Virus record (IMG/VR): IMGVR_UViG_3300034104_002844
Coordinates: 1-26,009 of that record
DNA length: 26,009 nt
Direction: 5' to 3' (one strand)
From: a virus
Position 1 is the first letter of the stretch. The number at the start of each line of letters is the position of its first letter. Shown piece by piece: positions 2,233 through 26,009 of the stretch. Below the pieces are notes generated by a model, which ran no database searches, was not told where the DNA came from, and worked only from the letters and a program-made list of their open reading frames with translations. The translations under genes and the position numbers were made by a program.

Positions 2233-2237
2233 TAAGT

Positions 2238-3110: not shown

Positions 3111-3111
3111 T

Positions 3112-4617: not shown

Positions 4618-4620
4618 ATT

Positions 4621-5256: not shown

Positions 5257-5269
5257 ATTATTTAACTTT

Positions 5270-7121: not shown

Positions 7122-8338
7122 AGGAACTATTCAACTTGGGAGACTTATATGTTTCCGATTTTTTAAAAGAAGACGATAAACCAAGAGGTGGTAAAGTTGA
7201 TTTAAAACTTATGTTAGAACACGAAACTGGTGCTGTAAGACTTGAGCAATGCGCACCATTAGACACTATGTACGGAAAATACTGGTATAGGTCTGGAATT
7301 AATAATACAATGAAAAAAGAACTAAACGATATTGTTAATTCTATTTTAGAAAATTACAAACTACAAGATTCTGATTTATGGGTTGATATTGCTTGTAACG
7401 ATGGTACACTATTAAGTAATTTACCAAAAACATTAATTAGGGTTGGTATTGATCCCGTTGATAATACATTTAAAAACGAATCAGAAAAACACGCAAATCT
7501 AATAATCCAAGACTATTTTAGTTCAGATGTTTTTAAAAAATCTAAATATGGTAATATAAAAGCTAAAGTTATTACAACAATTGCAATGTTTTATGATTTA
7601 GATAAACCAAAAGATTTTATCAACGGTGTTTATGAAGTGTTAGATGATAATGGTTTGTGGGTTTTACAAATGTCTTACACGCCATTAATGATTGAGCAAA
7701 TGGCTTTTGATAATATCTGTCACGAACACATATATTATTACTCACTTTTTAACATTAAAAAAATATTTGAGGAGTGTGGTTTTGACATAATTGATACTCA
7801 ATTAAACGATGTTAATGGTGGATCTTTTAGAATTTATTGTATGAAAAAAACTGGCGATAAAACTAAATTTGGAACACAACCATATAGAGATGTCTGTAAA
7901 TTTAGAGTTGAGTCATTGTTGGAATATGAAAAAAGTTTAAAATTGGATTCACCGATTACTTGGTTTAACTTTTTTAAAAGTATTAACGAGTTAAAAGAAA
8001 AAACGGTTTCTTTTATTAAAGAAGAAAAAAATAAAGGAAAAAAAATATGGGCTTATGGAGCGTCAACAAAAGGGAATACGTTGTTACAGTATTTTGGTTT
8101 AGACAATACTTTAATTGATGGTATTGCAGAAAGAAGTCCTTATAAATTTGGTTTAAAAACCGTTGGTACAAATATCCCAATTTTTTCTGAAGAGGAAATG
8201 AGAAAAGAAAACCCTGATTACTTGTTGGTATTACCTTGGCATTTTATAAATGAGTTTGTTGAACGTGAATCTGAATTTTTAAACTCTGGTGGGAAATTTA
8301 TTGTTCCGTGCCCTAAATTTGAAATAATTGGTAAATGA
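7115..8338 (+). CDS. Sugar C-methyltransferase (TylCIII/NovU-like)
   Basis: This 407-residue SAM-dependent methyltransferase has the three-part build of NDP-sugar C-methyltransferases. The N-terminal region (1-60) corresponds to the Zn-binding domain, including 'YGKYWYRSG' (53-61). The class I SAM domain has motif I 'VDIACNDGTLL' (90-100) and the family signature 'CHEHIYYYS' (202-210). The C-terminal domain has 'IWAYGASTKGNTLLQYF' (311-327) and 'LVLPWHF' (371-377). Family members methylate C3 of NDP-4-keto-6-deoxysugars, which fits the Gmd encoded at 10275. The Cys ligands usual in the N-terminal domain are missing; only Cys46 remains. The stop overlaps the next ATG by 4 bases. The family call is strong; the actual substrate is inferred from context. 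Confidence 0.85.
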   Translation: MLEELFNLGDLYVSDFLKEDDKPRGGKVDLKLMLEHETGAVRLEQCAPLDTMYGKYWYRSGINNTMKKELNDIVNSILENYKLQDSDLWVDIACNDGTLLSNLPKTLIRVGIDPVDNTFKNESEKHANLIIQDYFSSDVFKKSKYGNIKAKVITTIAMFYDLDKPKDFINGVYEVLDDNGLWVLQMSYTPLMIEQMAFDNICHEHIYYYSLFNIKKIFEECGFDIIDTQLNDVNGGSFRIYCMKKTGDKTKFGTQPYRDVCKFRVESLLEYEKSLKLDSPITWFNFFKSINELKEKTVSFIKEEKNKGKKIWAYGASTKGNTLLQYFGLDNTLIDGIAERSPYKFGLKTVGTNIPIFSEEEMRKENPDYLLVLPWHFINEFVERESEFLNSGGKFIVPCPKFEIIGK

Positions 8339-8970
8339 AATATTACGCAGAATTTGAAACGGACAAAATTATAAGAGAAACTTATTTTCCGGATTTAACC
8401 TTTAAAGGTACTATTGTTGAGGTCGGTGGAGCAACACCTGAATTTTTGTCAATGTCAAAACATTTTAAAGATAATGGATGGCGAGCGGTGGTTATAGAAC
8501 CAAACCCAAAGTTTGTTGAGGAACATAAAAACGTAAATAACGAAGTTTATCAATATGCGTGTTCAGATGAAAACAAATTTGGTGAGTTTACAATTGTTGA
8601 GCAACAGGTTAATGCTTACGGAGGAGTTGTAACTGATCACTCGTTTTCATCAATTGCAATAAAGGAAAGTTATTTGACTAAAACAAACTTATCACTTTCA
8701 GACTTAAAAACAAAAAAAATTCAAGTAGAAATTAGAAGACTAGACTCTATACTCCAGGATTTAAATATTGACACCGTAGATATTTTATCTATAGATGTTG
8801 AAGGTTGGGAATTAGACGTTATGTTAGGTCTTGATACTGAAAAAATAAATTGTAAACTGATTGTTGTTGAAAATTTTTTAAATGATATAGAATATAATAA
8901 CTATTTTGAAAAAATTGGTTATGTCTTGAAACAAGAAATAAACTATAACCAAATATATGTAAAAAAATGA
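8335..8970 (+). CDS. FkbM-family methyltransferase, first of three
   Basis: This 211-residue SAM-dependent methyltransferase carries FkbM signatures: motif I 'VEVGGATPEF' (28-37), acidic ribose-binding strand 'VIEPNP' (53-58), 'RRLDSIL' (134-140) and 'SIDVEGWELDVM' (152-163). FkbM enzymes O-methylate hydroxyl groups, often on sugars or polyketides. The usual Ala of 'VGA' is Gly here, a mild change. It overlaps both neighbours by ATGA (8335-8338 and 8967-8970), a tightly coupled arrangement. Its place among glycosyltransferases and sugar-nucleotide genes suggests it methylates the glycan. Confidence 0.85.
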   Translation: MKYYAEFETDKIIRETYFPDLTFKGTIVEVGGATPEFLSMSKHFKDNGWRAVVIEPNPKFVEEHKNVNNEVYQYACSDENKFGEFTIVEQQVNAYGGVVTDHSFSSIAIKESYLTKTNLSLSDLKTKKIQVEIRRLDSILQDLNIDTVDILSIDVEGWELDVMLGLDTEKINCKLIVVENFLNDIEYNNYFEKIGYVLKQEINYNQIYVKK

Positions 8971-9665
8971 AAAAAGAGATTATACATTTAAACAAAAAAA
9001 TAACAATAAACCTACACGAAAATGAAATTGTATCGTCGTCTATAAATGATAGTAGTAAGTTTTTTGAAGTGGAATTTTTAGAATTTGTAAGAAATAATTT
9101 TCAAAAACAAAAAACGATTATTGATATTGGCGCTAACATTGGCAACCATTCTTTATTTTTTTCAGAATTTTTAGAGTATGATGAAATAATTTGTTTTGAG
9201 CCCTTTGAAAAAAATGTTGAGTTACTTAAGCTTAATTTAAATGGTAAAAATTGTAAAATAATGGATTTTGCGCTTAGTGATTCGGAATCTGAAAAAATAT
9301 TGTATAATAGTCAGTCAAATAATTTTGGTGGATTTTCATTACATTCTTATGATGGGAGTAAAGGAGAAAATAAGTCATTTATTGTTAAAGACAAAGTAAC
9401 TACTAAAACTTTAGATAGTTTAAACCTTACTAATGTTACTATGATTAAAATAGATGTTGAGGGTCATGAGAACGAGGTACTAAATGGTGGTGTAAAAACA
9501 ATAAAAAGAAACTCTCCAGTAATTTTTATTGAAAATTTAAGTAGTGGGTATCCTCATTTATTTAAGGATTCACAATTTGATGAATTTTTTGAAAAAATAA
9601 ACTACACTAGAATTCATAAAAACATTGAGGGGAGTTTTATGGATTTATGGGTACCAAAAAAATAA
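8967..9665 (+). CDS. FkbM-family methyltransferase, second of three
   Basis: This 232-residue protein is the most classical FkbM of the three. It has 'IDIGANIGNHSLFF' (52-65) for SAM binding, 'CFEPFEKN' (76-83), 'KTLDSL' (147-152) and 'KIDVEGHENEVLNGG' (161-175). An N-terminal 45-residue segment ahead of the Rossmann core may be a substrate lid. It starts in the stop codon of the first FkbM gene. It is clearly a paralogue in family terms but not a recent copy of its neighbours, since identity outside the motifs is low. Likely role: O-methylation of a sugar hydroxyl. Confidence 0.87.
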   Translation: MKKEIIHLNKKITINLHENEIVSSSINDSSKFFEVEFLEFVRNNFQKQKTIIDIGANIGNHSLFFSEFLEYDEIICFEPFEKNVELLKLNLNGKNCKIMDFALSDSESEKILYNSQSNNFGGFSLHSYDGSKGENKSFIVKDKVTTKTLDSLNLTNVTMIKIDVEGHENEVLNGGVKTIKRNSPVIFIENLSSGYPHLFKDSQFDEFFEKINYTRIHKNIEGSFMDLWVPKK

Positions 9666-9671
9666 AAAAAG

Positions 9672-10271
9672 ATGTATTATTCACAATCTGATCAAGACAA
9701 ATGGGTTACAGAATTTTACCAAAACAAAAGAAATGGTTTCTTTGTTGAGGTGGGAGCTTATGACGGTATACAAACTAGTAATACTTTTTTCTTTGAACAA
9801 AGTTTAGGTTGGTCTGGAATCTGTATTGAAGCAAACCCAAACGTTTTTAATAGACTAATTAAAAATAGAAAGTCAATTAATTTAAACTATGCAGTCACTG
9901 ACTATGAAGGTGAGTGTTTTTTTAGCAATGACAGAATTTCAAATACTGGGAGTAAAGTAAAATGTTTACCATTAGAAAAAATCTTAAAGGAAAATGACTG
10001 TCCAAGAAAAATTGATTATTTGTCAATGGATATTGAGGGGCATGAATACATAGTATTAAAAAATTTTAATTTTGATGAGTTTGAAATTGGTCTTATGACA
10101 ATTGAGCACAATCTTTATTGTGACGGAAACGAAAGAAAAGATTTAATCTATAACTTACTAACAAGTAAAGGTTTTACGAGAGTTGTAGATAACGCTGTCT
10201 GTTTAGATAAGAACCCATTATACTATAATAAACCTTACGAAGACTGGTACGTTAATAACAAACTATTATAA
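9672..10271 (+). CDS. FkbM-family methyltransferase, third of three
   Basis: This 199-residue protein begins with the 'YSQSDQDKWV' element seen in a distinct FkbM branch. It then has 'FVEVGAYDG' (24-32), 'CIEANP' (51-56), 'CLPLEKIL' (98-105) and 'SMDIEGHEYIVLK' (118-130). Length and motif order fit a complete enzyme. It lies 6 bases after the second FkbM gene and 3 bases before gmd. The different N-terminus suggests a different methylation position or acceptor from its two neighbours. The family call is strong; the target is not known. Confidence 0.86.
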   Translation: MYYSQSDQDKWVTEFYQNKRNGFFVEVGAYDGIQTSNTFFFEQSLGWSGICIEANPNVFNRLIKNRKSINLNYAVTDYEGECFFSNDRISNTGSKVKCLPLEKILKENDCPRKIDYLSMDIEGHEYIVLKNFNFDEFEIGLMTIEHNLYCDGNERKDLIYNLLTSKGFTRVVDNAVCLDKNPLYYNKPYEDWYVNNKLL

Positions 10272-12934: not shown

Positions 12935-13993
12935 ATGAACACAGAAAATTTAGAAAAGTTAGAAAAGTCCATTGAGAATTTAAAAAATAAAAACTCAAGA
13001 ATTTATTTTTTCGTTCAGGACACAAAAGGTAATGCAAGGGCATCTGTCAGATTGATTTATCAAATGGCACATAGTCTTAAAACGAAAGGGTATAATGCCA
13101 TTATTTTACACGAAAAATCAGAGTATTTTGGTGTATCATCTTGGTTAGATGAAAAATTTATGGTGGATTTGGAACACAAATATGTTGAGGGTACGAATTT
13201 AGAAATTTCACCAGAAGACTTTATTGTAATTCCAGAGATTTATGGTTTCCTTATGGATCAAATTACTAAACTTCCTTGTGGAAAAATTGTATTGTGTCAA
13301 GCTTATGACCATATTTTTGAGACTTTACAACCAGGTGAAACTTGGCCAACCTTTGGGTTTTATAAATGTATTACAACTTCAGAAAAACAAAAAGATTATA
13401 TTGAGTCTGTTATGAGAAATGTATCTGTTGATGTTGTTAATCCGGTAATTTCCGAGGTATTTGAAAAAAATCAATATCCACCAAAAACTGTTATTTCCAT
13501 CCACACTAGAGAACAGCGTGATACGGTTAATTTAATTAAAACTTTTTATACAAAATTCCCACAATATAGATGGATTACTTTTAGAGATATGAGAGGTTTA
13601 AGTGAGGTAGAATTTGCTAATGGTATGAAAGATAGTTTTCTTTCTGTATGGATTGATGAAAGATCAGGTTTTGGAACATATCCTTTAGAGTCAATGAAAA
13701 TGAATGTACCAGTTATTGGTTTAGCACCTAATTTAGTACCAGAATGGATGACAGAGGATAACGGTATTTGGATTAATAATTTTAACGGTATTGTTGAGGT
13801 TGTTGCAGACTTCATCCAAAATTGGTTAGAAGATAATATTAGTCCAGAATTATTTGTTGAAATGGAAAAAACAGCTAACACTTATTCAAACTATGAAAAA
13901 TTTGAATCAAACGTTGAGGAATTATTCTCAACATATATTTCAACAAGATTAGAGTCTTTTGAAGAACAATTAAATAAATTTCAAACAATATAA
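12935..13993 (+). CDS. GT-B (GT4-like) glycosyltransferase
   Basis: This 352-residue protein has the two-Rossmann GT-B plan. After a 20-residue charged helix comes 'IYFFVQDTKGNARASVRLIYQM' (23-44), with the glycine/arginine-rich N-terminal donor loop. The C-terminal domain begins near 'PPKTVISIHTREQRDTV' (182-198). It carries 'WIDERSGFGTYPLESMKMNV' (239-258), which matches the family-4 'E.FG..P.E.M..G.P' donor-binding block including Glu252. The product resembles phage and marine bacterial GT4 proteins acting on surface glycans. It is separated from the main sugar block by phoH, the HAD-like gene and a small gene. Sugar specificity unknown. Confidence 0.75.
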   Translation: MNTENLEKLEKSIENLKNKNSRIYFFVQDTKGNARASVRLIYQMAHSLKTKGYNAIILHEKSEYFGVSSWLDEKFMVDLEHKYVEGTNLEISPEDFIVIPEIYGFLMDQITKLPCGKIVLCQAYDHIFETLQPGETWPTFGFYKCITTSEKQKDYIESVMRNVSVDVVNPVISEVFEKNQYPPKTVISIHTREQRDTVNLIKTFYTKFPQYRWITFRDMRGLSEVEFANGMKDSFLSVWIDERSGFGTYPLESMKMNVPVIGLAPNLVPEWMTEDNGIWINNFNGIVEVVADFIQNWLEDNISPELFVEMEKTANTYSNYEKFESNVEELFSTYISTRLESFEEQLNKFQTI

Positions 13994-13999
13994 TTAGAT

Positions 14000-14806
14000 A
14001 TGGAAAACGAAATTAAAATCTCCGTGGTATTACCAATTAAATCTGGTAAATCCCCATTTTTTGATGATTACTTTAATAAAGCAATAACATCTGTAAAAAA
14101 CCAAGGTGAATATGTACAAGAATTGATTATTGTACATACAGACGAAACTTTCTTGGTAAATCATTTAACTAACTATGACTTTGGTGATTTAAATGTGGTT
14201 TTGGAATCTTGGACTAGTGAACCTAGTTTTGGTGAACAAGTTAATAAGGGTGTTGAACTATCAAAATCTAATTGGGTTTCATTTATAGAATTTGACGATG
14301 AATACTCAAATATATGGTTTAAAAATGTTGTAAACTATATTAACATCTATAAAGAAACTGATGTGTATCTTCCAGTTGTTGTTGATGTTGACGATAAAGG
14401 GGTATTTGTTGGGTTTACAAACGAAGCAACTTTTGCTGCCAACTTCTCACAAGAAATGGGTATATTAACCAACGAAACATTACTATCATACCAAAACTTT
14501 CAAATTTCAGGTATGGTTTTCAAAAAAGAAGTATTTAATAAATACGGAGGACTAAAACCATCAATTAAACTTACATTTGGATATGAGTTGTTATTAAGAT
14601 TAACTAACAATGCTGTTAATTTTATGACAATCCCTAGAATTGGTTACAAACATACAAATTTAAGAGAAGGTTCAATTTTCTGGAACTATAAAAATGGGTC
14701 TGAAAAATTGTCTGAAGATGAAGTTCGTTTTTGGATTGATACCGCTAAAAAAGAATATTTCTTTACACAAGATAGAAATATAAAATACGAACCACAAGAA
14801 GTTTAA
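14000..14806 (+). CDS. GT2-like glycosyltransferase
   Basis: This 268-residue protein opens 'IKISVVLPIKSGKSPFFDDY', a GT-A/GT2 start. It continues with 'ELIIVHTDE', 'FGEQVNKGVELSKSNWVSF' (about 77-95) and 'IEFDDEYSNIWF', in which Phe-Asp-Asp takes the place of DxD. The later 'ISGMVFKKEVFNKYGGL' and 'FGYELLLRL' match the acceptor-side region. The long Asp/Val-rich middle is unusual for the family. It lies 6 bases after the GT-B gene, and its TAA shares a base with the sigma-factor ATG, linking the last sugar gene directly to late regulation. Confidence 0.72.
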   Translation: MENEIKISVVLPIKSGKSPFFDDYFNKAITSVKNQGEYVQELIIVHTDETFLVNHLTNYDFGDLNVVLESWTSEPSFGEQVNKGVELSKSNWVSFIEFDDEYSNIWFKNVVNYINIYKETDVYLPVVVDVDDKGVFVGFTNEATFAANFSQEMGILTNETLLSYQNFQISGMVFKKEVFNKYGGLKPSIKLTFGYELLLRLTNNAVNFMTIPRIGYKHTNLREGSIFWNYKNGSEKLSEDEVRFWIDTAKKEYFFTQDRNIKYEPQEV

Positions 14807-15564: not shown

Positions 15565-15933
15565 ATGCCAAGACCACAAAAAAAACAAATCAATCTGACA
15601 AAAGAATCAATGTTGTCGTTGATGCAGGAAATTTATAATGAACTTGTTGAACAAAGGAACACCGCAATGCGTATCCAAAATAAAATGTTGACAATGATGA
15701 AAGAACCAGAAGATATGACACTTATTGGTCCTGTGATTGAAAAACAACAAAAGATTATAAACGATTGCGTTGAGAAAAAATTATCCCTCTCAAAATTACA
15801 AGCACAAATTTGGCAAAAATCACAAGATAAACAAGACGAATTTACTTTATCTGATATAGATTTAGATGATGATATTATGAAATCTTTAATAGAAAAAGAC
15901 ACATCCGATAAAAACTATAAAATTAATAAGTAA
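15565..15933 (+). CDS. Small coiled-coil protein, probable virion or assembly gene
   Basis: This 122-residue protein is not assigned to a known family. It is almost wholly helical, with heptad-like stretches 'MQEIYNELVEQRNTAMRIQ' and 'EKQQKIINDCVEKKLSLSKL', and an acidic end 'LSDIDLDDDIMKSL'. There is no signal or membrane segment. It lies just after the sigma gene, and its TAA overlaps the ATG of the 645-residue structural candidate (TAATG at 15931-15935), so co-translation and perhaps a chaperone or assembly role are plausible. Function unknown. Confidence 0.6.
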   Translation: MPRPQKKQINLTKESMLSLMQEIYNELVEQRNTAMRIQNKMLTMMKEPEDMTLIGPVIEKQQKIINDCVEKKLSLSKLQAQIWQKSQDKQDEFTLSDIDLDDDIMKSLIEKDTSDKNYKINK

Positions 15934-17870
15934 TGCCATTAGATTTATCTGAAGAATATAAGTTTCTCAAAAAAAAAGTTGAGAGTACAAAAAAATATAA
16001 AGAAGTAAAAAAAGATATTACTAATTTAAAAAAAAATAGTAATAAAAAATATTCCGATGTTAAAGGTGCAACAAAAGAATCTTTAAATGATTTTAAAGAA
16101 AAAAAACAAAAATATCAAAAAGATTTAAAAAATCAGTTTGATGAATTACTAGAGTTAAAGTTTATTTCTGATATAAAAACACAAAGTAAAACATCAAAAT
16201 ATATTAAAGAAACATTTGTTGAGGCTCTTATTAAGTTAAAACCAAAAATCCAAGAGATTGTAACAAATCTAGCAACTAAAGCTATTGGGTGTAGTCAAGA
16301 CCAAAATTATATTGGTAATCAAACATTTTACCTTAAAATATCATCTTTTGATATTTTTGGTATTTTAAAATTAGACCCAGATAGTCTAGAGGGTAAAATC
16401 ACATATGAACCAAAACCAACTCAATATTTTGTGACACCATTCACAATGAATAAAGAGTTATATAAAAGACTACAAAATCCAGTCCAACCGTTTTCAGATC
16501 CGTCTGTTAATGGGTTTCCGTTTAAAGGTAAGTCTGGACAAGACTTATTTGATTTTTCCTACGTAACATCATATGTTGACCCATTTGGGAATACAGTTGT
16601 TGGTGACTTTTTAAAAGTCACAGTACTAGATAGGGTTGATAATAAAGTTGACACTTTTATTAAAGACTATTACTCAACAATTGATGTTTTTGATTATAAA
16701 GGATTTTTTAAAAACTTATTTAATCAAGTTTACGGTGCTTTTTTAAACGGTATACCAGGAGACACAAAAAGTGATTCAAAAGGAAGTAATAAAACAATTG
16801 AGACAGATTTAAAATTTCTTATTATAATTAAAAGACTTTTAGGTATTTGTAGTGACGCATATCAAAATGAAATTGATGTTAGTGGTATTGCTAAAGTGTC
16901 TGAATTGGAGGAAATTGACGATTCGTATTTTGAGTTTTCAAACGTAGATTTAAATTATTTGTATCAAACTCTTTCCGATATTCAGTTGGGTGTATACGAA
17001 TTTGTTGATTGTAATTTAAGTAAATTGACAATTAACTCACTTGATTTGGCACAAGCCATTAACACTATAAATTTTGTTGATGGTAATAATGCAAATCAAA
17101 TAAATTTTGCAATAAATTTGACTAATGTTCCAGACGATGATTCTAATAACATTACAAGAGACTTTAATTTTTTAAGTGAATTCCCACGAGCTCTTATCAC
17201 AACAATCCTTTCACCAAAAACAATCTTACCGATTATGGTTATGGGTAGAGCGTTAAATAAATCGTATGTTGATAAAGTTAATAATTCTTTAGAATTTGCA
17301 AATAATCTTAGGAAGTATATAACTGACTTGGTTGGTAAAATAGTATTTGAATTTGTTTTTATTCTTTATCAAATTATAAGAAGAGATTTAATTGATTTAG
17401 TTAAAAGTATTGAAAGTGATATTAAGGAAGAATTGAAAAAAAAGAGGTATGAAAGAATTTTAATTTATATTGCTTTGGTATATAAAACAGCAAACATATT
17501 TTTTGACTACAGAAAATGTAAAACAATTGTTGATGATTTAATTGCTATTGTTGGTCTAATTGCAAAATTGTATAAATCAAAAGATAAGGAAATTCCTTTT
17601 GCACTTCTTGTCACAACACGTCTATTAAGAGGGTTTTCATCAAATGGTGCTTTTTTAAAAGTAATTGAAAAATACGATGAGCTCGGTATACCAACGGGGC
17701 CAATGCCAGACGGTAGTCCTAACTTATATTTAATATCGGCTAAAGCAATTATTGAAGCTTTTGATGAGGAAAAAAATGAAAACGAGAAAGTCCAGATTGC
17801 CGTTGAGCCATTAACCGTATTACCAATTGGTGTAACAAAACCTAGGGTGATGTTTGGAAAAAGCACTTAA
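15933..17870 (+). CDS. Large putative virion protein (baseplate region)
   Basis: This 645-residue protein is not recognised as a named family. The first 110 residues are Lys-rich coiled coil. The middle (about 120-300) is beta-rich with 'FYLKISSFDIFGILKLDPD' (132-150). Residues 415-440 contain 'PRALITTILSPKTILPIMVMG', and 465-545 hold two hydrophobic helices ('KIVFEFVFILYQIIRR', 'ILIYIALVYKTANIFF') separated by a charged linker. The C-terminus ends 'VEPLTVLPIGVTKPRVMF'. Its position 2 genes before the gp5-like spike protein and after the late sigma gene suggests a baseplate or tail component. The hydrophobic helices could be for packing or membrane contact; I cannot tell which. Confidence 0.55.
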   Translation: MPLDLSEEYKFLKKKVESTKKYKEVKKDITNLKKNSNKKYSDVKGATKESLNDFKEKKQKYQKDLKNQFDELLELKFISDIKTQSKTSKYIKETFVEALIKLKPKIQEIVTNLATKAIGCSQDQNYIGNQTFYLKISSFDIFGILKLDPDSLEGKITYEPKPTQYFVTPFTMNKELYKRLQNPVQPFSDPSVNGFPFKGKSGQDLFDFSYVTSYVDPFGNTVVGDFLKVTVLDRVDNKVDTFIKDYYSTIDVFDYKGFFKNLFNQVYGAFLNGIPGDTKSDSKGSNKTIETDLKFLIIIKRLLGICSDAYQNEIDVSGIAKVSELEEIDDSYFEFSNVDLNYLYQTLSDIQLGVYEFVDCNLSKLTINSLDLAQAINTINFVDGNNANQINFAINLTNVPDDDSNNITRDFNFLSEFPRALITTILSPKTILPIMVMGRALNKSYVDKVNNSLEFANNLRKYITDLVGKIVFEFVFILYQIIRRDLIDLVKSIESDIKEELKKKRYERILIYIALVYKTANIFFDYRKCKTIVDDLIAIVGLIAKLYKSKDKEIPFALLVTTRLLRGFSSNGAFLKVIEKYDELGIPTGPMPDGSPNLYLISAKAIIEAFDEEKNENEKVQIAVEPLTVLPIGVTKPRVMFGKST

Positions 17871-17872
17871 TT

Positions 17873-18088
17873 ATGGGAACAAAAATAGTTCAATCAGAAG
17901 TATTAGATATTATATCTGACCACCAAAATAGGTCAAATAAGGATATTCAATTAGCTCTAGAATTTATTCAAAAAGATTTTGAGGTTACTAAAGAAACATT
18001 AATAAAACTTACAAATCATCTAGATAAATTAGAACTTACTTATAACACATTATTAAAAGAATACAATAACAGAAATGGATCCAAATAA
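17873..18088 (+). CDS. Small helical protein, probable tail/baseplate accessory
   Basis: This 71-residue protein, 'MGTKIVQSEVLDIISDHQ...', is predicted to be almost entirely helical with a heptad-like C-terminal half ('TKETLIKLTNHLDKLELTYN'). It starts 2 bases after the large structural gene and overlaps the gp5-like gene by 14 bases, so it is very likely co-translated with both. No family is recognised. Its position between two virion genes suggests a small assembly or trimerisation partner. Confidence 0.55.
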   Translation: MGTKIVQSEVLDIISDHQNRSNKDIQLALEFIQKDFEVTKETLIKLTNHLDKLELTYNTLLKEYNNRNGSK

Positions 18089-19595
18089 GATATTATTCCC
18101 AGCACTTGTTTTAGACATTAACGACCCTTTAAATACTGGTCGTATACGGGCATTTGTTAAAACTGGTGAATATGAAACAGTAACACAAGTTCCAGAAGAT
18201 AAAAAATGGGGTTATGAGGACACAATGGTTATACTACCATTAACACCAATGTATCTTTATGTAACACCAGTTGTTGGTGAATATGTACACGTAATTTATT
18301 ATAACACAAAAGAAAGATTTGATAGTAATAAGTTTTATATTCCAGGACCATTAAGTAGACCTTGGAATAACAAAAAAGAAAATTATAGTAATGCTCAATC
18401 TGTTTTAGCCTCTGGTGAAAATTTAAAAGGTGCTTACCAACCACGTAATCCACAAACTGGGATTGTACAAAAACCATTAGAAGGTGTATACCCAAATCCT
18501 GGTGATAATGCAATAATCGGTAGGGGTTCATCAGATATTATTATCAAAGAAAATGATATATTAATTAGATCTGGAAAATATAAGGGTACAACTAATACAA
18601 ATATACCCATACAAAAAAACGAAAATAGGTCATTTCTACAAATATCATCATTTGATTTAGAGAATAAAAGTGATGGGATAGAAACAGTAAGAGAAGAAGT
18701 ACAACCTGACGCTTTTGTTAAAAGATTTGTTCAATGGTCAATAACAAATTTAAACTCAACAGCCACAACATATGATTGTGAAATTAGATTTTATAATTTG
18801 ACGGGTAATAACGATTTATTTAAGGCTTCTGTAATTGACAATTCTTTTGAACTATTACAACCTTATTTGGGTAATTCATTATACACATTACAATTCACAG
18901 GAAAAACTTTAGATGAATCTGCGGAACTAATAAACACTTTTATAAGAAACGTAAATGATGGTCTTATAAACATACCTGGGTATAACCAATATCTTATTGA
19001 TTCTCAATTTCCATATTTTTATGGTCCAGATAGTACATCGTATTCTTATGTTACATCAAATTCATCAACACAACAAAATGACCTTATAAACTCAAATAAA
19101 GTCAATCTTTTATATAATAAAATAACATTCAATCAAAAATTCACAGAAAAAGGTAAAGGTTTAATGTGGATAAAAAATCCCAACAAATTGGGCATATTGC
19201 CAAATTTTATTGAAAAGAAATTTGCGAAAAGAAAGTATGTTGTAAATCAAGTTAATTATTCTGTACTAGGTGGAAATAAACTTTATTTATTAAGTCACGA
19301 CTCAACGGGTAAATATAAATTAGATTTGACTAATACATTGTATGGTATTGATCAAGAAAAATTAGCTGTTGACATATATAACAATACAACACCAATGGTA
19401 AGAGGTGGTGAATTAATAGACCTATTAAAAAAGATTGTTAATTTTATGTTTAATCACGTGCACAACCCAAGTGCAATACCAATTCAGGAGTACACAAACA
19501 CACAATTACCTAACCCACCATCGGCAAAAGAGATAATCCAAATTTTAAATTCGGCCGAAGATAAACTATTAAGTAAAAATATTAGAATTAATTGA
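18075..19595 (+). CDS. gp5-like baseplate hub / tail spike protein
   Basis: This 506-residue protein starts 'NKILFPALVLDINDPLNTGRIRAF', the N-terminal OB-fold of T4 gp5-type and other baseplate hub proteins. In the C-terminal part 'MVRGGELIDLLKKIVNFMFNHVHNP' (441-465) matches the conserved 'RG.EL...L..I..F...H.HP' element just before the end of such proteins. There is no lysozyme domain between them; instead a long Asn/Ser/Thr-rich middle (about 100-430), probably beta structure. It would sit at the centre of the baseplate and help cross the outer membrane. It overlaps a small helical gene by 14 bases. The gp5-like call is good; whether it is the spike or only the hub is not settled. Confidence 0.72.
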   Translation: MDPNKILFPALVLDINDPLNTGRIRAFVKTGEYETVTQVPEDKKWGYEDTMVILPLTPMYLYVTPVVGEYVHVIYYNTKERFDSNKFYIPGPLSRPWNNKKENYSNAQSVLASGENLKGAYQPRNPQTGIVQKPLEGVYPNPGDNAIIGRGSSDIIIKENDILIRSGKYKGTTNTNIPIQKNENRSFLQISSFDLENKSDGIETVREEVQPDAFVKRFVQWSITNLNSTATTYDCEIRFYNLTGNNDLFKASVIDNSFELLQPYLGNSLYTLQFTGKTLDESAELINTFIRNVNDGLINIPGYNQYLIDSQFPYFYGPDSTSYSYVTSNSSTQQNDLINSNKVNLLYNKITFNQKFTEKGKGLMWIKNPNKLGILPNFIEKKFAKRKYVVNQVNYSVLGGNKLYLLSHDSTGKYKLDLTNTLYGIDQEKLAVDIYNNTTPMVRGGELIDLLKKIVNFMFNHVHNPSAIPIQEYTNTQLPNPPSAKEIIQILNSAEDKLLSKNIRIN

Positions 19596-19604
19596 TATTT
19601 ATTG
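19595..19604 (+). promoter_or_regulatory. Second ATATTTATTG motif, before the DNRLRE-like gene
   Basis: ATATTTATTG starts at the last base of the gp5-like stop and ends 11 bases before the ATG at 19616. It is identical to the element at 15553-15562. The gap also has AAAAGG at 19607-19612, a weak Shine-Dalgarno-like site 3 bases from the start. It could be a late promoter part, a processing site or chance. Confidence 0.3.
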
Positions 19605-19615
19605 ATAAAAGGTAA

Positions 19616-21079
19616 ATGTCAATTAACAACTCTTATTTTAGTAGAAATAATACAATCATTTCCAATAGTTTTGTAAATACCGGTAGAAACCCAGTATTTG
19701 AATTATTTTATGGTGATTCCGGTATTGCAGTACCTATTGGTTATTCAAGATTTATTTTTGATTTAGATTTAACACTATTAAAAGAAAAAATAAATGAAGG
19801 TATAATTTCTTTAGATTGTAATAAAGAAGTAAAACACGTTTTAAAAGTTACAAACACAGTAAAGTTTAATAAAGAAGAATACCTTAATACAAGTAATTCT
19901 CAAGGAAGAAAACGTGCAACATCATTTGATTTAATTTTATTTAGAATACCTTATAGAGATTTAGACCCAAGTTTACCACAAAGATGGGATGAAGGTGTTG
20001 GGTATGACTTTGCAAATACCATTGGTAATATTTTTAACGATAAAAATTACTCTGACCGTCCTAGCAATTGGTATCAGACAACAACAATTGGTGTTTGGGA
20101 ACAACCTGGAATTTATAATAACACAAACACTGGAACTACTAATTTTAATGATTTAATAATTGTTGACACACAACATTTTGAATTTGGTAATGAAGATATT
20201 GAATTTGATATGACAAGTGAAATCAACGCGATTTTAGATGGGTCGTTTGAAAATCCGGTAGGTTGGGGTATTGCATATCTTCCACAAGTAGAAAATCTTG
20301 AGGGGTTAGACGGCACATATTCTGTTGAGTTTTTCTCAAGACACACTCAAACATTTTATGAACCATATTTGGAAACAACATACGATGACTTAATTGAAGA
20401 TGACAGAAATTCATTTTCTTTGGGTAAAGTAAATAAATTATATTTATACATTTATGAAGATGGTGATTTTCAGAATTTGGACCAGTTGCCTGTGGTTACA
20501 ATAACTGACGCATCTGGTGAACCAATTACAAATCTTACTAGTCTTACAGCTTGTAGTGTTACAAAGGGTGTTTATGAAATCACAATACCACCATTATTGG
20601 GGTATAAAACACCTTGTACATTTGGGGATAAGTGGTCAAACATTAAATTAAATGGATTTACTTTACCAGATGTTTATAATGAATTTGTTTTATACCCAAT
20701 TCAAAAATCAATTCAGATTGGTACAACATCAATAGACCCAAAAATCTATGGGTTTGATTATTATGGTATTAAACAAGATGAAAAAATATTAAATACGGAC
20801 ATTAGAAAAGTTGGGGTTATTATAAAACAAGCGTTTACAACAAATAAACAACTTCCAAATGCGGAAAGTTTTTATAGAATTTATGTTAGAGAAGGTCAAA
20901 CAGAAGTTCAAGTCCAAGACTGGACAAAACTAAATAGAACACCAAATGAGTATTATTTCATTTTTGACACAAGAGATAAAATACCAAATGAATATTATAT
21001 AGATTTAAAGGTAATTTCTAGTGGTGAAGTAAATACTTATAAGAAACAAATAAAATTTCAAATTGTGAATAAAAAATAA
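19616..21079 (+). CDS. Virion-type protein with DNRLRE-like domain
   Basis: This 487-residue protein has an N-terminal region resembling the DNRLRE domain. It has 'SRFIFDLDLTLLKEKI' early (44-59), 'FDLILFRIP' (104-112), then 'DMTSEINAIL' (198-207), 'VGWGIAYLP' (215-223) and 'YSVEFFSRHTQTFYEPYLET' (235-254), the usual last strands before 'LEV.Y'. DNRLRE domains occur on secreted and surface proteins, and in phages they appear in tail fibre or spike-associated proteins. The rest (about 265-487) is beta-rich and not recognised. It lies 20 bases after the gp5-like gene and 12 before the Cys-rich gene, so a tail or fibre role is likely. The DNRLRE call is from memory of the pattern. Confidence 0.6.
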   Translation: MSINNSYFSRNNTIISNSFVNTGRNPVFELFYGDSGIAVPIGYSRFIFDLDLTLLKEKINEGIISLDCNKEVKHVLKVTNTVKFNKEEYLNTSNSQGRKRATSFDLILFRIPYRDLDPSLPQRWDEGVGYDFANTIGNIFNDKNYSDRPSNWYQTTTIGVWEQPGIYNNTNTGTTNFNDLIIVDTQHFEFGNEDIEFDMTSEINAILDGSFENPVGWGIAYLPQVENLEGLDGTYSVEFFSRHTQTFYEPYLETTYDDLIEDDRNSFSLGKVNKLYLYIYEDGDFQNLDQLPVVTITDASGEPITNLTSLTACSVTKGVYEITIPPLLGYKTPCTFGDKWSNIKLNGFTLPDVYNEFVLYPIQKSIQIGTTSIDPKIYGFDYYGIKQDEKILNTDIRKVGVIIKQAFTTNKQLPNAESFYRIYVREGQTEVQVQDWTKLNRTPNEYYFIFDTRDKIPNEYYIDLKVISSGEVNTYKKQIKFQIVNKK

Positions 21080-21091
21080 AAAAAATATATT

Positions 21092-22903
21092 ATGGCTTTA
21101 AATAACGCGACTTACTGTCAAGATGAAAATAAACAAATACCAGTAAATTTTAACGGAAACACACCCTCAATTGGTGAAGTTTGGGGTACTTCGGATATTA
21201 ATGATAAGGTATTATATTGTGTAACAATAACAACTGGAGTTACAGAAGTTACTAGCACAAAATTATTAACAACACAATATACCGATTGTTATGACTGTAT
21301 GTCAAATAATTATGGTGTTGTTAGGGTAACAGATTGTATTGGTGGTGGCAAAAGTAGACAATATAATTTAACATTAGAAAGTTTTGGTTTTTTACCAACA
21401 ATTGGTGCTACGTATTATTTAACATTTTTAATAGGATCTAATTTAATTACAACTTGTGTTACTGTTAATAGAGAGGGTATTAGCCAACTTACAGAAAGTG
21501 ATTATAATAATAGTATTGCTGATGGAAAAATAGGTGTAGTACAAATAGTACCAACATTAGAAACTGATTGTAAAGAGTGTTTATCTGGTAACTCACTTTC
21601 TTATGTAGTTCAAAGATGTACAGATAGTGAAACAGATTACGTCTTATTAATAAATAATAGTTTTATAAATCATATTATAGCATACTCAGATGGAGTTAAC
21701 GAATATTGTGGAACTGTAGTTGGATTAGGTACCGGTGGTGTTCCATTTACATTTATTAATGATTATGGTTTAGGTGGTGACGGTGGTAGTGCAACTTGTG
21801 ATCAGTGTCTTGCAACTGAAGGCTTAAAAATATTATTACGAAGTTGTACTGATGAAGAGTATACTGAAGTTGTTTGGGCAGCAAGTTTATTTGAAGCTGG
21901 TGATATATCAAATTTATCAACAGAAAATGGTTGTTTTATAGTTGAGGGTCCAATAGAAGATGCCGAGGTAACACTTAATTCTTATTTAAACTTTGATCCA
22001 CAACCAGGGTGTGAACCTTGTATTGAGTGTAATGGTATTAATTATAGTTATACAACTTGTTCTGGTGAAGGAAGTGGTGATTTTAAATCTTATCAATATT
22101 TATCCGGTGGTACTAGGTTTTATCATTCAGCAATTGGTGAATGTTGTGAAGTTGTTGGTACTTCTTCTTCATATTATGATACATTATATAGTGTTGAAAC
22201 CTTTGAAGATTGTCCGGATTGTCAAGATAATGCAGATGTTGTTATTTGGAACGCTTCAGCTTGTACAAACTCAAATACATATAGTAGTATTTATGTTACG
22301 ACGGACAGTACAGCACAAATTGGTGATGTTGTTAAATTAATGTGGGGTTCAAATGAGTGGATTTGTGCTGGTCTTATTAATACGGCCAGTTCTTACAGTG
22401 GTTATTATACTTATTACAATACACAAAAAAATGGACTTGGTTCAACATTAATTTATGATAGTTGTGAAACTTGTAACTCACAAGGATTAATTGGTGCTAC
22501 ATTAGTTAATTGTGATACCCTTGTTGAGTCTTTTGTTAGTATAACACTTGATAATTACTTGTCAATTTATAATTTTGGTTCATTAACAAATTATAGTGTT
22601 AAAGATTCTAATGGTAGTTGTTATCAAATAACAAATCTTTGTCCAATACCTTTAGAAGAACAAGGATTTACTGCGGTTGAGTTTTATTTTAATTGTACAT
22701 TTTGTGAATCATTTAACCCAAACGCTCCAAGAAGTGCAAATACAGAAACGCTTGTTTGTGTTACTTGTTGTCCTTGTGATGGAACATCTGGATCAACATT
22801 TTCTGTTATACCACCACATCCAGTATGGACAGATGGTTATGGAACACCTGTTACACAATTAAATATGATTGTAATTGGTGGAATAAATGGATTAAATGGA
22901 TAA
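21092..22903 (+). CDS. Cysteine-rich repeat protein, probable virion adhesin
   Basis: This 603-residue protein is built from imperfect repeats. CxxC motifs recur at 66-69, 160-163, 236-239, 307-310, 374-377, 458-461 and 535-538, with a Cys-rich close 'CVTCCPC' (556-562). Each CxxC is followed about 10-17 residues later by another Cys in a 'C(T/D/S)' context, and most units have a further single Cys in the middle. Spacing is 67-94 residues. The rest is Gly/Ser/Thr/Tyr-rich beta sequence, typical of fibres. It has no signal peptide. Cys pairs could form disulphides once outside the cell or bind metal. It lies downstream of the DNRLRE-like gene and overlaps the next gene by 8 bases. No named family is recognised. 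Confidence 0.6.
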   Translation: MALNNATYCQDENKQIPVNFNGNTPSIGEVWGTSDINDKVLYCVTITTGVTEVTSTKLLTTQYTDCYDCMSNNYGVVRVTDCIGGGKSRQYNLTLESFGFLPTIGATYYLTFLIGSNLITTCVTVNREGISQLTESDYNNSIADGKIGVVQIVPTLETDCKECLSGNSLSYVVQRCTDSETDYVLLINNSFINHIIAYSDGVNEYCGTVVGLGTGGVPFTFINDYGLGGDGGSATCDQCLATEGLKILLRSCTDEEYTEVVWAASLFEAGDISNLSTENGCFIVEGPIEDAEVTLNSYLNFDPQPGCEPCIECNGINYSYTTCSGEGSGDFKSYQYLSGGTRFYHSAIGECCEVVGTSSSYYDTLYSVETFEDCPDCQDNADVVIWNASACTNSNTYSSIYVTTDSTAQIGDVVKLMWGSNEWICAGLINTASSYSGYYTYYNTQKNGLGSTLIYDSCETCNSQGLIGATLVNCDTLVESFVSITLDNYLSIYNFGSLTNYSVKDSNGSCYQITNLCPIPLEEQGFTAVEFYFNCTFCESFNPNAPRSANTETLVCVTCCPCDGTSGSTFSVIPPHPVWTDGYGTPVTQLNMIVIGGINGLNG

Positions 22904-23375
22904 AAAAATGAATAGATTAGATAGAATTATAAGAAAAGTTTTAAGAGAAGAAAATGAAGAAAAATCTTCAAGATATATGTTTTTTTCTAACTTACAACAG
23001 ATGAGAAGACAATGTGATTTGTTACTAGATTTAGACAAAGAAATGGTTGAGTCAATATTAGAAAATGGTCACGATTGGGCTCAAGACCATATATCAGAGG
23101 CAAAAAACAATATGGATCAAGTATTTGATTTTCTTATGAACGAATCAAAAAAAGATGGTATGCAAATGTCAATGTCTGTTGATGATGAAGATATGGTTAT
23201 GATGGAAGGTAGAAAAAAAACCGGTACAAAATTATGTGCAAGAGGTATTGCATCTGCAAAGGCAACATATGACGTATATCCAAGTGCTTATTCTAATGGT
23301 CACGCTGTTCAAGTATGTAAAGGTTCTATTAAAGGTCTTGATGGTAAAAAACGTTGTTCTGGTGTTTATTGTTAA
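22896..23375 (+). CDS. Protein with capsid-targeting-like N-terminus and C-terminal Cys module
   Basis: This 159-residue protein begins 'MDKKMNRLDRIIRKVLREEN', an amphipathic basic helix ending in L-R-E (16-18). This resembles the N-terminal capsid-targeting peptides of T4 internal proteins, which prohead protease cuts after (L/I)xE. A helical acidic middle follows. The C-terminal module (105-159) is 'KKTGTKLCARGIASAK', 'YDVYPSAYSNGHAVQVCKG' and 'KRCSGVYC', a compact four-Cys pattern (114, 141, 154, 159) of the kind seen in short marine-phage proteins. The start may instead be the ATG at 22908, 4 bases after the upstream stop; 22896 overlaps it by 8. Function unknown; packaging inside the capsid is an inference. 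Confidence 0.6.
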   Translation: MDKKMNRLDRIIRKVLREENEEKSSRYMFFSNLQQMRRQCDLLLDLDKEMVESILENGHDWAQDHISEAKNNMDQVFDFLMNESKKDGMQMSMSVDDEDMVMMEGRKKTGTKLCARGIASAKATYDVYPSAYSNGHAVQVCKGSIKGLDGKKRCSGVYC

Positions 23376-23395
23376 ATTTTTTTAAAAATTTTTTT
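23374..23395 (+). terminator. Possible AT-only terminator after the long plus-strand gene run
   Basis: AAATTTTT (23374-23381) and AAAAATTT (23384-23391) are inverted repeats followed by more T. The hairpin would have only A-T pairs and a very tight loop, so it is weak. It comes right at the end of the plus-strand run that starts at the left edge and just before a new promoter, which is where a terminator would be expected. Confidence 0.25.
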
Positions 23396-23423
23396 GGATA
23401 ATTAAAAAAAACACATATCTTTG
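23393..23423 (+). promoter_or_regulatory. Bacteroidota-type promoter (-33 TTTG, -7 TATCTTTG)
   Basis: TTTG at 23393-23396 and TATCTTTG at 23416-23423 are separated by 19 bases. This is an exact match to the Bacteroides/Flavobacterium housekeeping promoter consensus TTTG-N19-21-TAnnTTTG. It lies in the 68-base gap before the ATG at 23444, the longest gap in the window. Transcription should start near 23430, giving a leader of about 14 bases. It would let host sigma factor transcribe the gene at 23444 independently of the upstream genes. Confidence 0.75.
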
Positions 23424-23443
23424 TAGAAAATAAATTATAAGAT

Positions 23444-23884
23444 ATGTTTAAAAGAATTTTTAGGTTTTTTAGAAGGTTTAAAATGCGATTTTATTTATGG
23501 ACAAAAAAAGACGGTGTTTTTAAAAGTTACGAAGAAGAAACAACTTCTTATGAAAAAACTTGTTTTCATATTTGTGTCAAAATGATTAAAAACCAATCAA
23601 CCAAATTTATGATTGCCCCAATGTCACATAAACGGTATTTGGAGAATAAAGAATTAGATTTGTTTATAACAATGTATGATGGTAATGTTGATTTAACAAA
23701 TCACGTATACCATTACCACGTAAAATTGAGTAAACGAGATTGGGAAAGAGTCACAAAAATATATGACACAGAGACCGAAAAAAGAAGAACCGAATACGAA
23801 GAAAAGGTAAATTCCCAAATAAAAAATTCATTACATAACGTACTAGAAAGAATTTCTAATTTCAGTAAGAACTCTGTCAACTAA
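23444..23884 (+). CDS. Unknown protein expressed from a host-type promoter
   Basis: This 146-residue protein is not recognised. It starts with a very basic, aromatic segment 'MFKRIFRFFRRFKMRFYLW' that could bind membrane or nucleic acid. It has 'SYEKTCFHICVKMI' and 'DLTNHVYHYHVKLSKRDWER', and a charged helical end. Cys and His residues (CFHIC, HVYHYH) might bind a metal, but the spacing fits no motif I know. It has its own Bacteroidota-type promoter at 23393-23423, unlike its neighbours, and its last 42 bases overlap the 3' end of the opposite-strand gene. It could be an early or host-takeover gene. Confidence 0.6.
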   Translation: MFKRIFRFFRRFKMRFYLWTKKDGVFKSYEEETTSYEKTCFHICVKMIKNQSTKFMIAPMSHKRYLENKELDLFITMYDGNVDLTNHVYHYHVKLSKRDWERVTKIYDTETEKRRTEYEEKVNSQIKNSLHNVLERISNFSKNSVN

Positions 23885-24760
23885 ATTATTAATTGATTCT
23901 TTTTTTGTCTTATAAGAAGTCATAACTGGTTTTTGTCCTTTACCAGATTGTGAATCATTTTTTTCAGCACGTCTTTTTTGTTGACAAGCACTTCTTTTTT
24001 GTGAATCTGACATTTTACCAGCAACACCGGCAGCCCTACATTTAGGATATGAACCACTACTGGTGTCACTTCTACCACAAGGTGGATGTTTACCATCAAC
24101 CTTCCTACAAATATCCACCCAAGGGCCTTTTGGTTGTGATGAACCTTTTGGTTTTTTCTTTTTACCAAACCAAACAGCCAAGTCTTCCTTTATTGTATGA
24201 ACGGGATATTCTTCTTGATTATAACTACCATCTTCACTTTTTTCCCAAACACCCACAGTTCTTTTAATATTGTTTTTTAAGTTAGGTTTTTTCATATGGT
24301 CATTATAATTGTGGTCTATTTCTATATCAAACGGACTTAATAAATTCTTTTTCCATTTTTTTAATCCCAACTCAATTGGTCCATTATAAGGTCCAGCACT
24401 TATTGACGTGTCAGCTTCTTTTATTGGAACTATTTTTAAATTTTTACCTGGTGTTTTATTTATTATGTCACCATCTTCATCATTTTGGATTGGATGTTTT
24501 TTTGCGTATCGTCTTGATTTGTCTGCCTTTTTCTCAAGTTGTTTTATTTGTTTTTTTGGTGTATTCATTTTACCATCATAACTATCATATTCCAAATAAG
24601 GACTATCATAATCTGAAACACGTATTGTGAAAGGTTCTAGTTGACCATCGGAAAAATCTCTAATACCAGGTCTTAATGGTACAAGATAAGACCCACGAAC
24701 ACCACCACTATCACTAGTAGCTTCCCTAATTATTTCTTTTATCCTTTTATCGCTTATCAT
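23843..24760 (-). CDS. Modular protein with repeated prohead-protease-like sites
   Basis: This 305-residue minus-strand protein starts 'MISDKRIKEIIREA', a basic helix ending in IRE (11-13). Further (I/L)xE sites lie at 113-115 (IKE), 190-192 (IKE) and 298-300 (LTE), each just before a separate module. Module 1 is 'ATSDSGGVRGSYLVPL' (14-29). Module 2 is 'ADTSISAGPYNGPIEL' (116-131). Module 3 contains 'WFGKKKKPKG' (197-206) and 'PWVDICRKVDG', 'PPCGRSDTSSGSYPKC' and 'SQKRSACQQKRRAE' (213-266). Modules 1 and 2 share an S-x-G-x-Y-x-x-P pattern. Module 3 is a small Cys-containing domain I recall from marine phages. The last 42 bases overlap the convergent gene. An internal-capsid or structural role is inferred. 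Confidence 0.6.
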   Translation of the reverse strand: MISDKRIKEIIREATSDSGGVRGSYLVPLRPGIRDFSDGQLEPFTIRVSDYDSPYLEYDSYDGKMNTPKKQIKQLEKKADKSRRYAKKHPIQNDEDGDIINKTPGKNLKIVPIKEADTSISAGPYNGPIELGLKKWKKNLLSPFDIEIDHNYNDHMKKPNLKNNIKRTVGVWEKSEDGSYNQEEYPVHTIKEDLAVWFGKKKKPKGSSQPKGPWVDICRKVDGKHPPCGRSDTSSGSYPKCRAAGVAGKMSDSQKRSACQQKRRAEKNDSQSGKGQKPVMTSYKTKKESINNLVDRVLTEIRNSF

Positions 24761-24765
24761 TATTT

Positions 24766-24773
24766 TATAAATA
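24766..24773 (+). promoter_or_regulatory. T4-late-like TATAAATA box between divergent genes
   Basis: TATAAATA, identical to the T4 late promoter consensus, lies in the 28-base gap between the minus-strand start (24760) and the plus-strand start (24789), 15 bases before the latter. Read on the minus strand the same site is ATATTTAT, the core shared with 15553 and 19595, 6 bases before the minus-strand ATG. A late sigma is encoded at 14806. It might serve either gene. Confidence 0.35.
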
Positions 24774-24788
24774 TCTAATTAATTAAAA

Positions 24789-25004
24789 ATGGAAGAAGAA
24801 ACTAAAATTTACGGTAATTTATTTGGTGTGATAGACTTGTTTAACGAAGAACATTTAGATGCTATATTAACAACAATGGATAGAGAACACTCAATATATT
24901 ATTTGGTTGAGGCCGTTAAATCAGCTCATAAAAGGGGTGCATTTACAATTGGTGAAACTGAAGTTATATCAAAGGCAATAAGAACAATTTCTAACGAATC
25001 TTAA
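24789..25004 (+). CDS. Small protein of unknown function, conserved-looking
   Basis: This 71-residue protein reads 'MEEETKIYGNLFGVIDLFNE', then 'HLDAILTTMDREHSIYYLVE', then 'KRGAFTIGETEVISKAIRT'. It seems a compact alpha-helical protein with a Gly-rich turn. I recall similar short proteins in marine phages but cannot name a family. It has no signal or membrane segment. It lies 28 bases from a divergent gene with a TATAAATA box between them, and its stop codon is immediately next to the stop codon of the convergent minus-strand gene (25005). Confidence 0.6.
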   Translation: MEEETKIYGNLFGVIDLFNEEHLDAILTTMDREHSIYYLVEAVKSAHKRGAFTIGETEVISKAIRTISNES

Positions 25005-26009
25005 TTATCTAATCATTTTTCTCATAGTACCGTCTTCATATACCTCAATTATTACACCTGTAGTATATTTTGGGTCAACCTTTTGTCCTAATAAATTAAT
25101 ATAACCGATAATTTTTTTATCTGTAACATCCCTTGTGATAGCTATCGGCCCGTATATTTCAAATTTACCATCAATATCAAATTGTTGTAATCTATAATAA
25201 ACAATTTCACTTAAATTATTATCAATGTAAGAATATTTTAATTCTTCTGTTGAATTTCCTGCTGACGGAATTGTTGTTATTTTTCTCCAGTTTTCACCAT
25301 CAATACTTGATTCTAAATCAAAATGACTTGAATTTTGTTCGGAATCGGTAGACCATTTTATTACGTTCCATTGTTGGTATGGTAATCCCTCAAATTGAGT
25401 TAATTCAACAGGTAGTGCAACACTTAATAGTATACTATATTCTTCTATTTCACCATAACCATATCCTGTCGAATAATAGGCATCATTTGTTGGTGTTGCA
25501 TTCCAAACAGAAAGTACTCTCATTTTAACTGTACCCCCGATAGCATCATTTGGTACATTAACAGAAGTAGAACCTGTCGCACCTGGTGCTGATAATAACA
25601 CATTTTCTGTTGTTTGAAATACCCCGTCTTGGTCCCAATCAATCCAAGCGGCATAACCAGGGTACGAACCAAAAGTTAGTGTGCCTGAAACAGATATTGT
25701 ATAAACGCCGCCAATATCTAAATTACCAACAATTGAAAGGTAATCAGAATATGCGTCTCCGTCTTCAGTAGATGTGTTATTAATATCACTTAAAGTTACA
25801 TTTGTAATATAATCACCATCACTAACCCCATAAGTATATGGTGGTGCAAGTTCTAATGTGACTAAAATTGGTGATGTAACACCAGCAGGACAAGAACCAT
25901 TTACTGAAGTCGCTCTAAAATACATATTTGTTTGAGCAACATTTAGTTGTAATGTATATGGTATAATAGGATTTGTTGTTGATCCAGCAACTGTACTAAA
26001 ATTATTAAA
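25005..26009 (-). CDS. GEVED/T9SS-type surface protein, 5' end outside window
   Basis: The minus-strand frame is open from 26009 to the TAA at 25005-25007, giving 334 residues. An internal ATG at 25925 is not the true start, because the frame continues upstream with Ig-like beta sequence. From the left end of the protein: an Ig-like tail ('NMYFRATSVNGSC...', to about 25850), a GEVED-like domain (25829-25422) with 'AAWIDWDQDGVF' and 'GEIEEYSI', a T9SS-associated beta domain (25415-25131: 'LPVELTQFEG', 'FDLESSIDGENW', 'YYRLQQFDIDGKFE'), and a short C-terminal segment (25118-25008) with 'NLLGQKVDP', 'VIIEVYEDGT' and 'RKMIR'. These are typical of Bacteroidota proteins exported by the type IX system. 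Signal peptide not visible. In a phage it may be a virion adhesin or a secreted host-derived protein. Confidence 0.75.
   Translation of the reverse strand, partial: FNNFSTVAGSTTNPIIPYTLQLNVAQTNMYFRATSVNGSCPAGVTSPILVTLELAPPYTYGVSDGDYITNVTLSDINNTSTEDGDAYSDYLSIVGNLDIGGVYTISVSGTLTFGSYPGYAAWIDWDQDGVFQTTENVLLSAPGATGSTSVNVPNDAIGGTVKMRVLSVWNATPTNDAYYSTGYGYGEIEEYSILLSVALPVELTQFEGLPYQQWNVIKWSTDSEQNSSHFDLESSIDGENWRKITTIPSAGNSTEELKYSYIDNNLSEIVYYRLQQFDIDGKFEIYGPIAITRDVTDKKIIGYINLLGQKVDPKYTTGVIIEVYEDGTMRKMIR

Follow-up and report, generated by a model that had tools for sequence, protein, structure and literature searches.

A capsid-linked phage gene for a putative cargo of the host type IX secretion system with a short C-terminal tail

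Introduction

The locus described here raises the question of why a phage gene should encode a protein whose C-terminus looks like that of a cargo of the type IX secretion system (T9SS). The Bacteroidota that such phages infect rely on the T9SS to place their surface, their gliding adhesins and many enzymes. The window, that is, the whole stretch of DNA that was analysed, is the complete IMG/VR virus record IMGVR_UViG_3300034104_002844 (26,009 nt), and the gene is located at one end of it. Judged from the sequences, the product is most likely a late-expressed phage cargo of the host T9SS that carries a short, uncatalogued signal. If this is true, these viruses would rewrite the exterior of infected cells at a late stage, and would do so by a route that other phyla do not offer. 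The tail, with about 40 residues, is easily testable and is common to cellular proteins that no current model annotates. Its confirmation would add one sorting-signal class and many unannotated secreted proteins.

Results and Discussion

The window ORF and the full-length gene

The ORF comprises 334 amino acids and runs open into the contig end, the 5' part of the gene lying beyond that end. The following features were assigned to it.

25005–26009, minus strand: ORF of 334 codons plus stop, the 3' part of a gene for a modular, predicted secreted protein
25431–25655, minus strand: GEVED domain (PF20009), residues 119–193 of 334
25134–25415, minus strand: Ig-like (T9SS-associated beta) domain, about residues 199–292, from AlphaFold2 strands and cellular relatives in Bacteroidota
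25008–25127, minus strand: short C-terminal tail, putative T9SS sorting signal, from alignments, the viral scan and cellular genomes

The GEVED-like domain named in a first-pass annotation of the window is a true Pfam match (PF20009, E-value 4.1e-15, 56.8 bits against a cut-off of 24.4), and the "T9SS-associated beta domain" of the same annotation turned out to be an Ig-like module with the pattern LPVELTQF...YYRLQQFDIDG...YGPI. The tail is marked by NLLGQ-x-V, GVIIEVY, DGT and a terminal Lys (codon 25017–25019).

The missing 5' end, which the first-pass annotation had proposed to obtain, was recovered in another contig. Contig L002 is 100% identical to positions 23035–26009 of the window across 2,975 nt and contains the whole gene. 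Its full-length product, counted from the ATG, has 856 residues and starts with a Sec signal peptide, MKSFLILLFTLISFIGITQ. This is followed by an N-terminal beta-rich module, fn3, GBD_T9SS_assoc and GEVED domains, the Ig-like domain and the tail. The profile-matched domains of the 856-residue protein are as follows.

Residues 258–338: fn3, with a score slightly under the cut-off
Residues 350–475: GBD_T9SS_assoc
Residues 641–715: GEVED

An AlphaFold2 model of the 334 residues, built with 54 viral relatives, had a mean pLDDT of 72. The first 65 residues or so were modelled at low confidence. The GEVED region was beta-rich, with pLDDT values mostly of 76–88 except close to its end, and the Ig-like domain consisted of beta strands with values of 82–93 over most of its length. 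The last 36 residues formed three strands with block means of about 80–90. A PDB fold search with this model returned generic Ig/fn3 matches only, with TM-scores of at most about 0.27 by query length. The top matches in BFVD, all at low TM-scores, were phage CUB/Fn3 proteins and one entry named "Secretion system C-terminal sorting domain". The model of the N-terminal module was poor (pLDDT 46.7), a comparison of its profile with the PDB gave no credible match, and an Rfam scan gave no match.

Genomic setting

Relatives of the ORF are encoded in eleven IMG/VR contigs, and the gene order around the tail-bearing gene is kept across L002–L010. The neighbours in the window are listed below.

24789–25004, plus strand: convergent ORF of 71 residues (cluster c19), kept beside the gene in L002, L003 and L005
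23843–24760, minus strand: co-oriented neighbour of 305 residues (cluster c1), beside the gene in most relatives, its C-terminal part matching phrog_23735
15933–23884, plus strand: conserved opposite-strand gene block (clusters c3, c6, c7, c4, c5, c0 and c12)

The opposite-strand block is syntenic with blocks in L003, L004, L006, L007 and L008, and this synteny ties the tail-bearing gene to phage DNA. The window itself stops short of the other flank, beyond the 5' side of the gene, which was identified in L004. It encodes Portal_T4 (1.8e-77), a Peptidase_S77 prohead protease (2.4e-23) and Gp23 (2.1e-73). In L004 and other relatives, the gene is thus adjoined by gp20 (portal), gp21 (prohead protease) and gp23 (major capsid), which constitute a T4-like head locus.

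In the window, the "NLLGQ...EDGT..K" end stands exactly as the first-pass annotation had written it, and a scan with the tail alone matched at least 122 viral stretches, far beyond chance. Eighty of these stretches were kept; being IMG/VR contigs, they are partly redundant and mostly fragments. Of the 79 loci examined, 58 have the major capsid gene upstream and on the same strand, and the two genes are often 146–152 nt apart; a portal gene was detected in 21 of 26 tail-bearing records. The full-length gene follows a T4-like major capsid gene at a distance of about 150 nt, an arrangement repeated in dozens of viral contigs. Where the gap was wider, the extra genes examined encoded either homing endonucleases or an S8 subtilase with a signal peptide, whose own end (LPGFYFIVSNNLIIKKIYKN) resembles a sorting signal.

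These data bear on the possibility that a host T9SS gene was fused to a phage contig by misassembly, or that this end of the contig is host DNA. As such an artefact would have it, the gene is truncated where the contig ends, and the T9SS cargo described so far is nearly all bacterial. Against it stand the independent contig with 100% identity across 2,975 nt, the surrounding gene order shared by L002–L010, the portal, protease and capsid genes on the opposite flank, and the 79 further viral loci. The chimera with host DNA, which the first-pass annotation had named as one outcome that would overturn its proposal, was rejected because of the identical contig and the conserved gene order; the same junction recurs in independent contigs. 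We regard an artefact of either kind as highly improbable.

Promoter-like and terminator-like elements

The intergenic stretch between the capsid gene and the tail-bearing gene contains a conserved GC-rich hairpin followed by a T run, and then TATTTATTA about 25 nt before the ATG. The motif TATTTATW was found within 60 nt upstream of same-strand ORFs of L004 at 8 of 14 sites, against 0.42 expected (P 2e-9). The capsid and tail-block genes are among those that it precedes. In relatives, few copies lie on the reverse strand of these upstream stretches. This element may be a late promoter of this phage group, judging by its position and strand bias.

TATTTATW was also seen 10–50 nt before structural genes, at L004:8403 and in the upstream regions of L003 and L007.

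Signal peptides and variable N-terminal modules

The position of the gene directly 3' of the major capsid gene, and the promoter-like element common to head and tail genes, would suit a virion decoration or adhesion protein. Such a protein would be a Hoc-like or fibre-like head protein composed of Ig-like and lectin-type modules. It would be added to the capsid in the cytoplasm, and its tail would be a structural remnant. Ig-like and fn3 domains are common on virions, and several of the structural matches in BFVD, with low TM-scores, are virion or tail proteins.

A head decoration protein would be expected to have no export signal, but a signal peptide is present. By a home-made hydropathy/cleavage rule, used in place of SignalP, 56 of 57 distinct complete tail-bearing viral ORFs were called as having a signal peptide; the remaining one starts at a non-ATG codon, behind which a signal peptide is obvious on inspection. 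Among the other ORFs at these loci, 34 of 343 passed the same rule, and membrane proteins and the subtilase account for many of the 34. Essentially every full-length relative, like the L002 gene, has a Sec signal peptide, which would export the protein from the cytoplasm, where heads assemble. The same tail is also found on secreted cellular proteins, and in several relatives the neighbouring phage gene encodes the signal-peptide subtilase with its CTD-like end. These facts make a virion protein unlikely. Of the two readings that the first-pass annotation had left side by side, host-driven secretion and a virion adhesin, the former is favoured by the signal peptides and the latter is disfavoured.

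Clustering of 59 distinct ORFs gave seven unrelated N-terminal groups and one C-terminal group. The N-terminal two thirds of the family are made of interchangeable adhesion-type modules (fn3, galactose-binding-like, CUB, GEVED and others). As far as its sequences tell, the family is a set of variable recognition modules on a constant C-terminus.

The short tail and catalogued sorting domains

In the alignments, tail residues N305, G308, Q309, G318, D326, G327 and K331 were invariant or nearly so. Pfam and NCBIfam scans of viral and cellular short tails gave no match to any sorting-domain model, including TIGR04183 and PF18962, whereas a canonical tail used as a positive control was recognised by both models, with a match at 6.6e-19. 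NCBIfam scans up to an E-value of 10 returned neither the type B model TIGR04131 nor the type C model NF033708 for the short tails. The assignment of the tail by profile to a type A, B or C sorting domain was therefore rejected.

The tail nevertheless has points in common with the type A domain (TIGR04183/PF18962). Both are C-terminal and stand behind the same kind of Ig-like domain. The pattern (V/I)xNLLGQxV is similar to motif B of type A, and GVIIEIY...K, with its terminal Lys, is similar to motifs D and E. On the other hand, type A is a seven-stranded Ig-like sandwich that starts with YPNP (motif A), whereas the tail is about half as long (about 40 residues), is without YPNP and has three modelled strands. 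Direct comparison of the tail with the type A profile gave a weak score over 19 columns (probability 25%; 20.1 against 17.8 for the best of 200 column shuffles). In global mode the comparison was uninformative, one shuffle exceeding the true score. Because the score is weak, we do not claim homology to type A.

It is worth noting that the signal peptide allows another interpretation, in which the protein is exported by Sec without being a T9SS cargo. It would then stay in the periplasm or be freed at lysis, and the tail would serve stability or anchoring. The signal peptide is clear, whereas recognition of the tail by the T9SS is something that we infer, and both the weak profile similarity to type A and the lack of a sorting-domain model match agree with Sec export alone. 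This interpretation does not account for the fact that the tail follows an Ig-like domain behind which cellular proteins have a type A sorting domain. The tail is, moreover, confined to the very C-terminus and ends in a Lys-bearing strand of the kind important for the T9SS (PMC10202324, PMC10994853). According to a review, GFP is exported when fused to no more than the final 22 residues of one type A domain, which contain motifs D and E, and export requires the final 13 residues with the Lys (PMC10202324). A cryo-EM study showed that a near-invariant C-terminal Lys contacts PorV (PMC10994853). We consider export by Sec alone improbable, slightly more so than a virion protein.

The tail and the Ig-like domain in cells

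Many Bacteroidota proteins contain the Ig-like domain, and 78 of 79 cellular matches have a type A sorting domain at the place of the tail, in agreement with the association with the T9SS proposed for this domain in the first-pass annotation. The short tail itself was found in 31 of 60 genomes of the family, and in 89 of 199 genomes of the order, to which the Brumimicrobium genome G029 belongs. Among complete cellular ORFs with the short tail, 32 of 35 have a hydrophobic N-terminus. SprA was detected in 196 of 199 genomes of the tail-sharing order (Flavobacteriales). Since the T9SS is near-universal in this order, the co-occurrence of tail and T9SS has by itself little power. A phylum-wide draw of genomes, which contained few members of the order, had the tail in the centre genome only.

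We infer a link of the tail to the T9SS from the Ig-like partner domain, the occurrence in T9SS-bearing Flavobacteriales and the likeness to motifs B and D–E. The description of the C-terminus as "T9SS-type" in the first-pass annotation thus holds for its position and its occurrence on secreted proteins of T9SS-bearing bacteria. It does not hold in the sense of a catalogued family, as the tail belongs to none of the catalogued sorting-domain families and resembles the type A profile weakly.

A related tail form, LLKIVDLMGRE...NTPLIYIYSDGT.EK, was seen on Flavobacteriales signal-peptide proteins (cellular loci L187, L190, L197, L219 and others). It matches no Pfam or NCBIfam sorting-domain model.

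Proposed function

We consider it likely that the gene is a phage late gene encoding a host-secreted protein, the tail of which would be read by the host T9SS so that the product comes to lie outside the infected cell. The host Sec system would move the protein into the periplasm. There the tail would be read by the T9SS (SprA/PorV), probably through the GVIIEIY segment and the end with the C-terminal Lys, which would play the part of motifs D and E of type A. After passage through the T9SS late in infection, the protein would be released or attached outside the cell, where glycans or surface proteins would be the ligands of its variable N-terminal modules. The likeliest use, and the least certain step, would be the masking of receptors or another alteration of the infected-cell surface, for superinfection exclusion or for keeping progeny off debris. 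The variability of the N-terminal modules would fit an arms race at the surface, with receptor masking and exclusion of other phages.

A broader hypothesis, for which we would put the chances at a little under even, is that the short tail represents an additional, so far uncatalogued T9SS sorting-signal class, which Flavobacteriales have in common with their large T4-like phages. The late, capsid-side position would then be a slot for polymorphic secreted proteins, at times accompanied by a secreted subtilase, and would serve to remodel the infected-cell surface.

Relation to known systems

Phage-encoded T9SS cargo is already known. Three such proteins were described in "Cryophage" (Bellas et al. 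2020, PMC7468147), and at least one BFVD phage entry is annotated with a secretion-system sorting domain. The authors of the Cryophage study proposed host secretion of membrane-associated proteins, for superinfection exclusion or strain competition (PMC7468147). As here, the Cryophage genes carry a T9SS sorting signal and are highly variable between phage variants. The Cryophage cargo consists of an endoglucanase, a GH39 protein and a PA14 protein with type A sorting domains, whereas the present family is a GEVED/fn3/CUB protein fixed behind a T4-like capsid gene, with a short tail missed by type A models. The crAss-BACON cluster 2 phages (PMC6949934) likewise have carbohydrate-binding-type modules and T9SS sorting domains beside Bacteroidota phage head genes, but they belong to another phage lineage and have other domains.

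A tblastn search of phage records found four huge metagenomic phages only. The huge phages LR745206, LR756500, LR756502 and LR756504 (462–642 kb) encode Ig-like proteins related to the C-terminus of the window protein, and LR745206 has the same short tail. Unlike the window, these four phages also have canonical type A sorting domains above the TIGR04183 cut-off.

As far as searched, two things are new. One is a polymorphic family of putative cargo, linked to the capsid gene in many T4-like phage contigs; the other is a class of short tails that current models miss in phages and cells.

Other observations at the locus

The signal-peptide S8 subtilase was located between the capsid gene and the tail-bearing gene in L007 (7355–8809), L022, L028, L050, L083 and others. 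Its T9SS-like end, LPG(F/Y)YF..NN..I.KKIYKN, suggests a second phage protein that is probably secreted. Homing endonuclease-type genes are repeatedly inserted directly downstream of the capsid gene (L008:3675–5399 and 6050–7666; L019, L032, L044, L061 and L081).

Directly 3' of the tail-bearing gene, a conserved polytopic membrane protein of about 155 residues is encoded at L007:11012–11473 (cluster c17; also L005, L006, L008 and others). It is absent from the window and could be surface-exclusion or holin-like. Upstream of the tail-bearing gene, L024:3159–4808 and L072:468–1976 encode signal-peptide proteins that start with QGV(G/S)INTDGS.P..S..LDVKS; one of them has a glycine-rich domain and looks fibre-like.

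Within the window, positions 1558–10271 and 12935–14806 are occupied by an extended series of genes that, judged by sequence appearance alone, look like those for glycosyltransferases, methyltransferases and NDP-sugar epimerases/dehydratases. This is an unusually large number of sugar genes for a phage segment. At 21092–22903, a protein of 603 residues (cluster c5) without a family match has repeated Cys-rich units of the CxxC type and is conserved in relatives.
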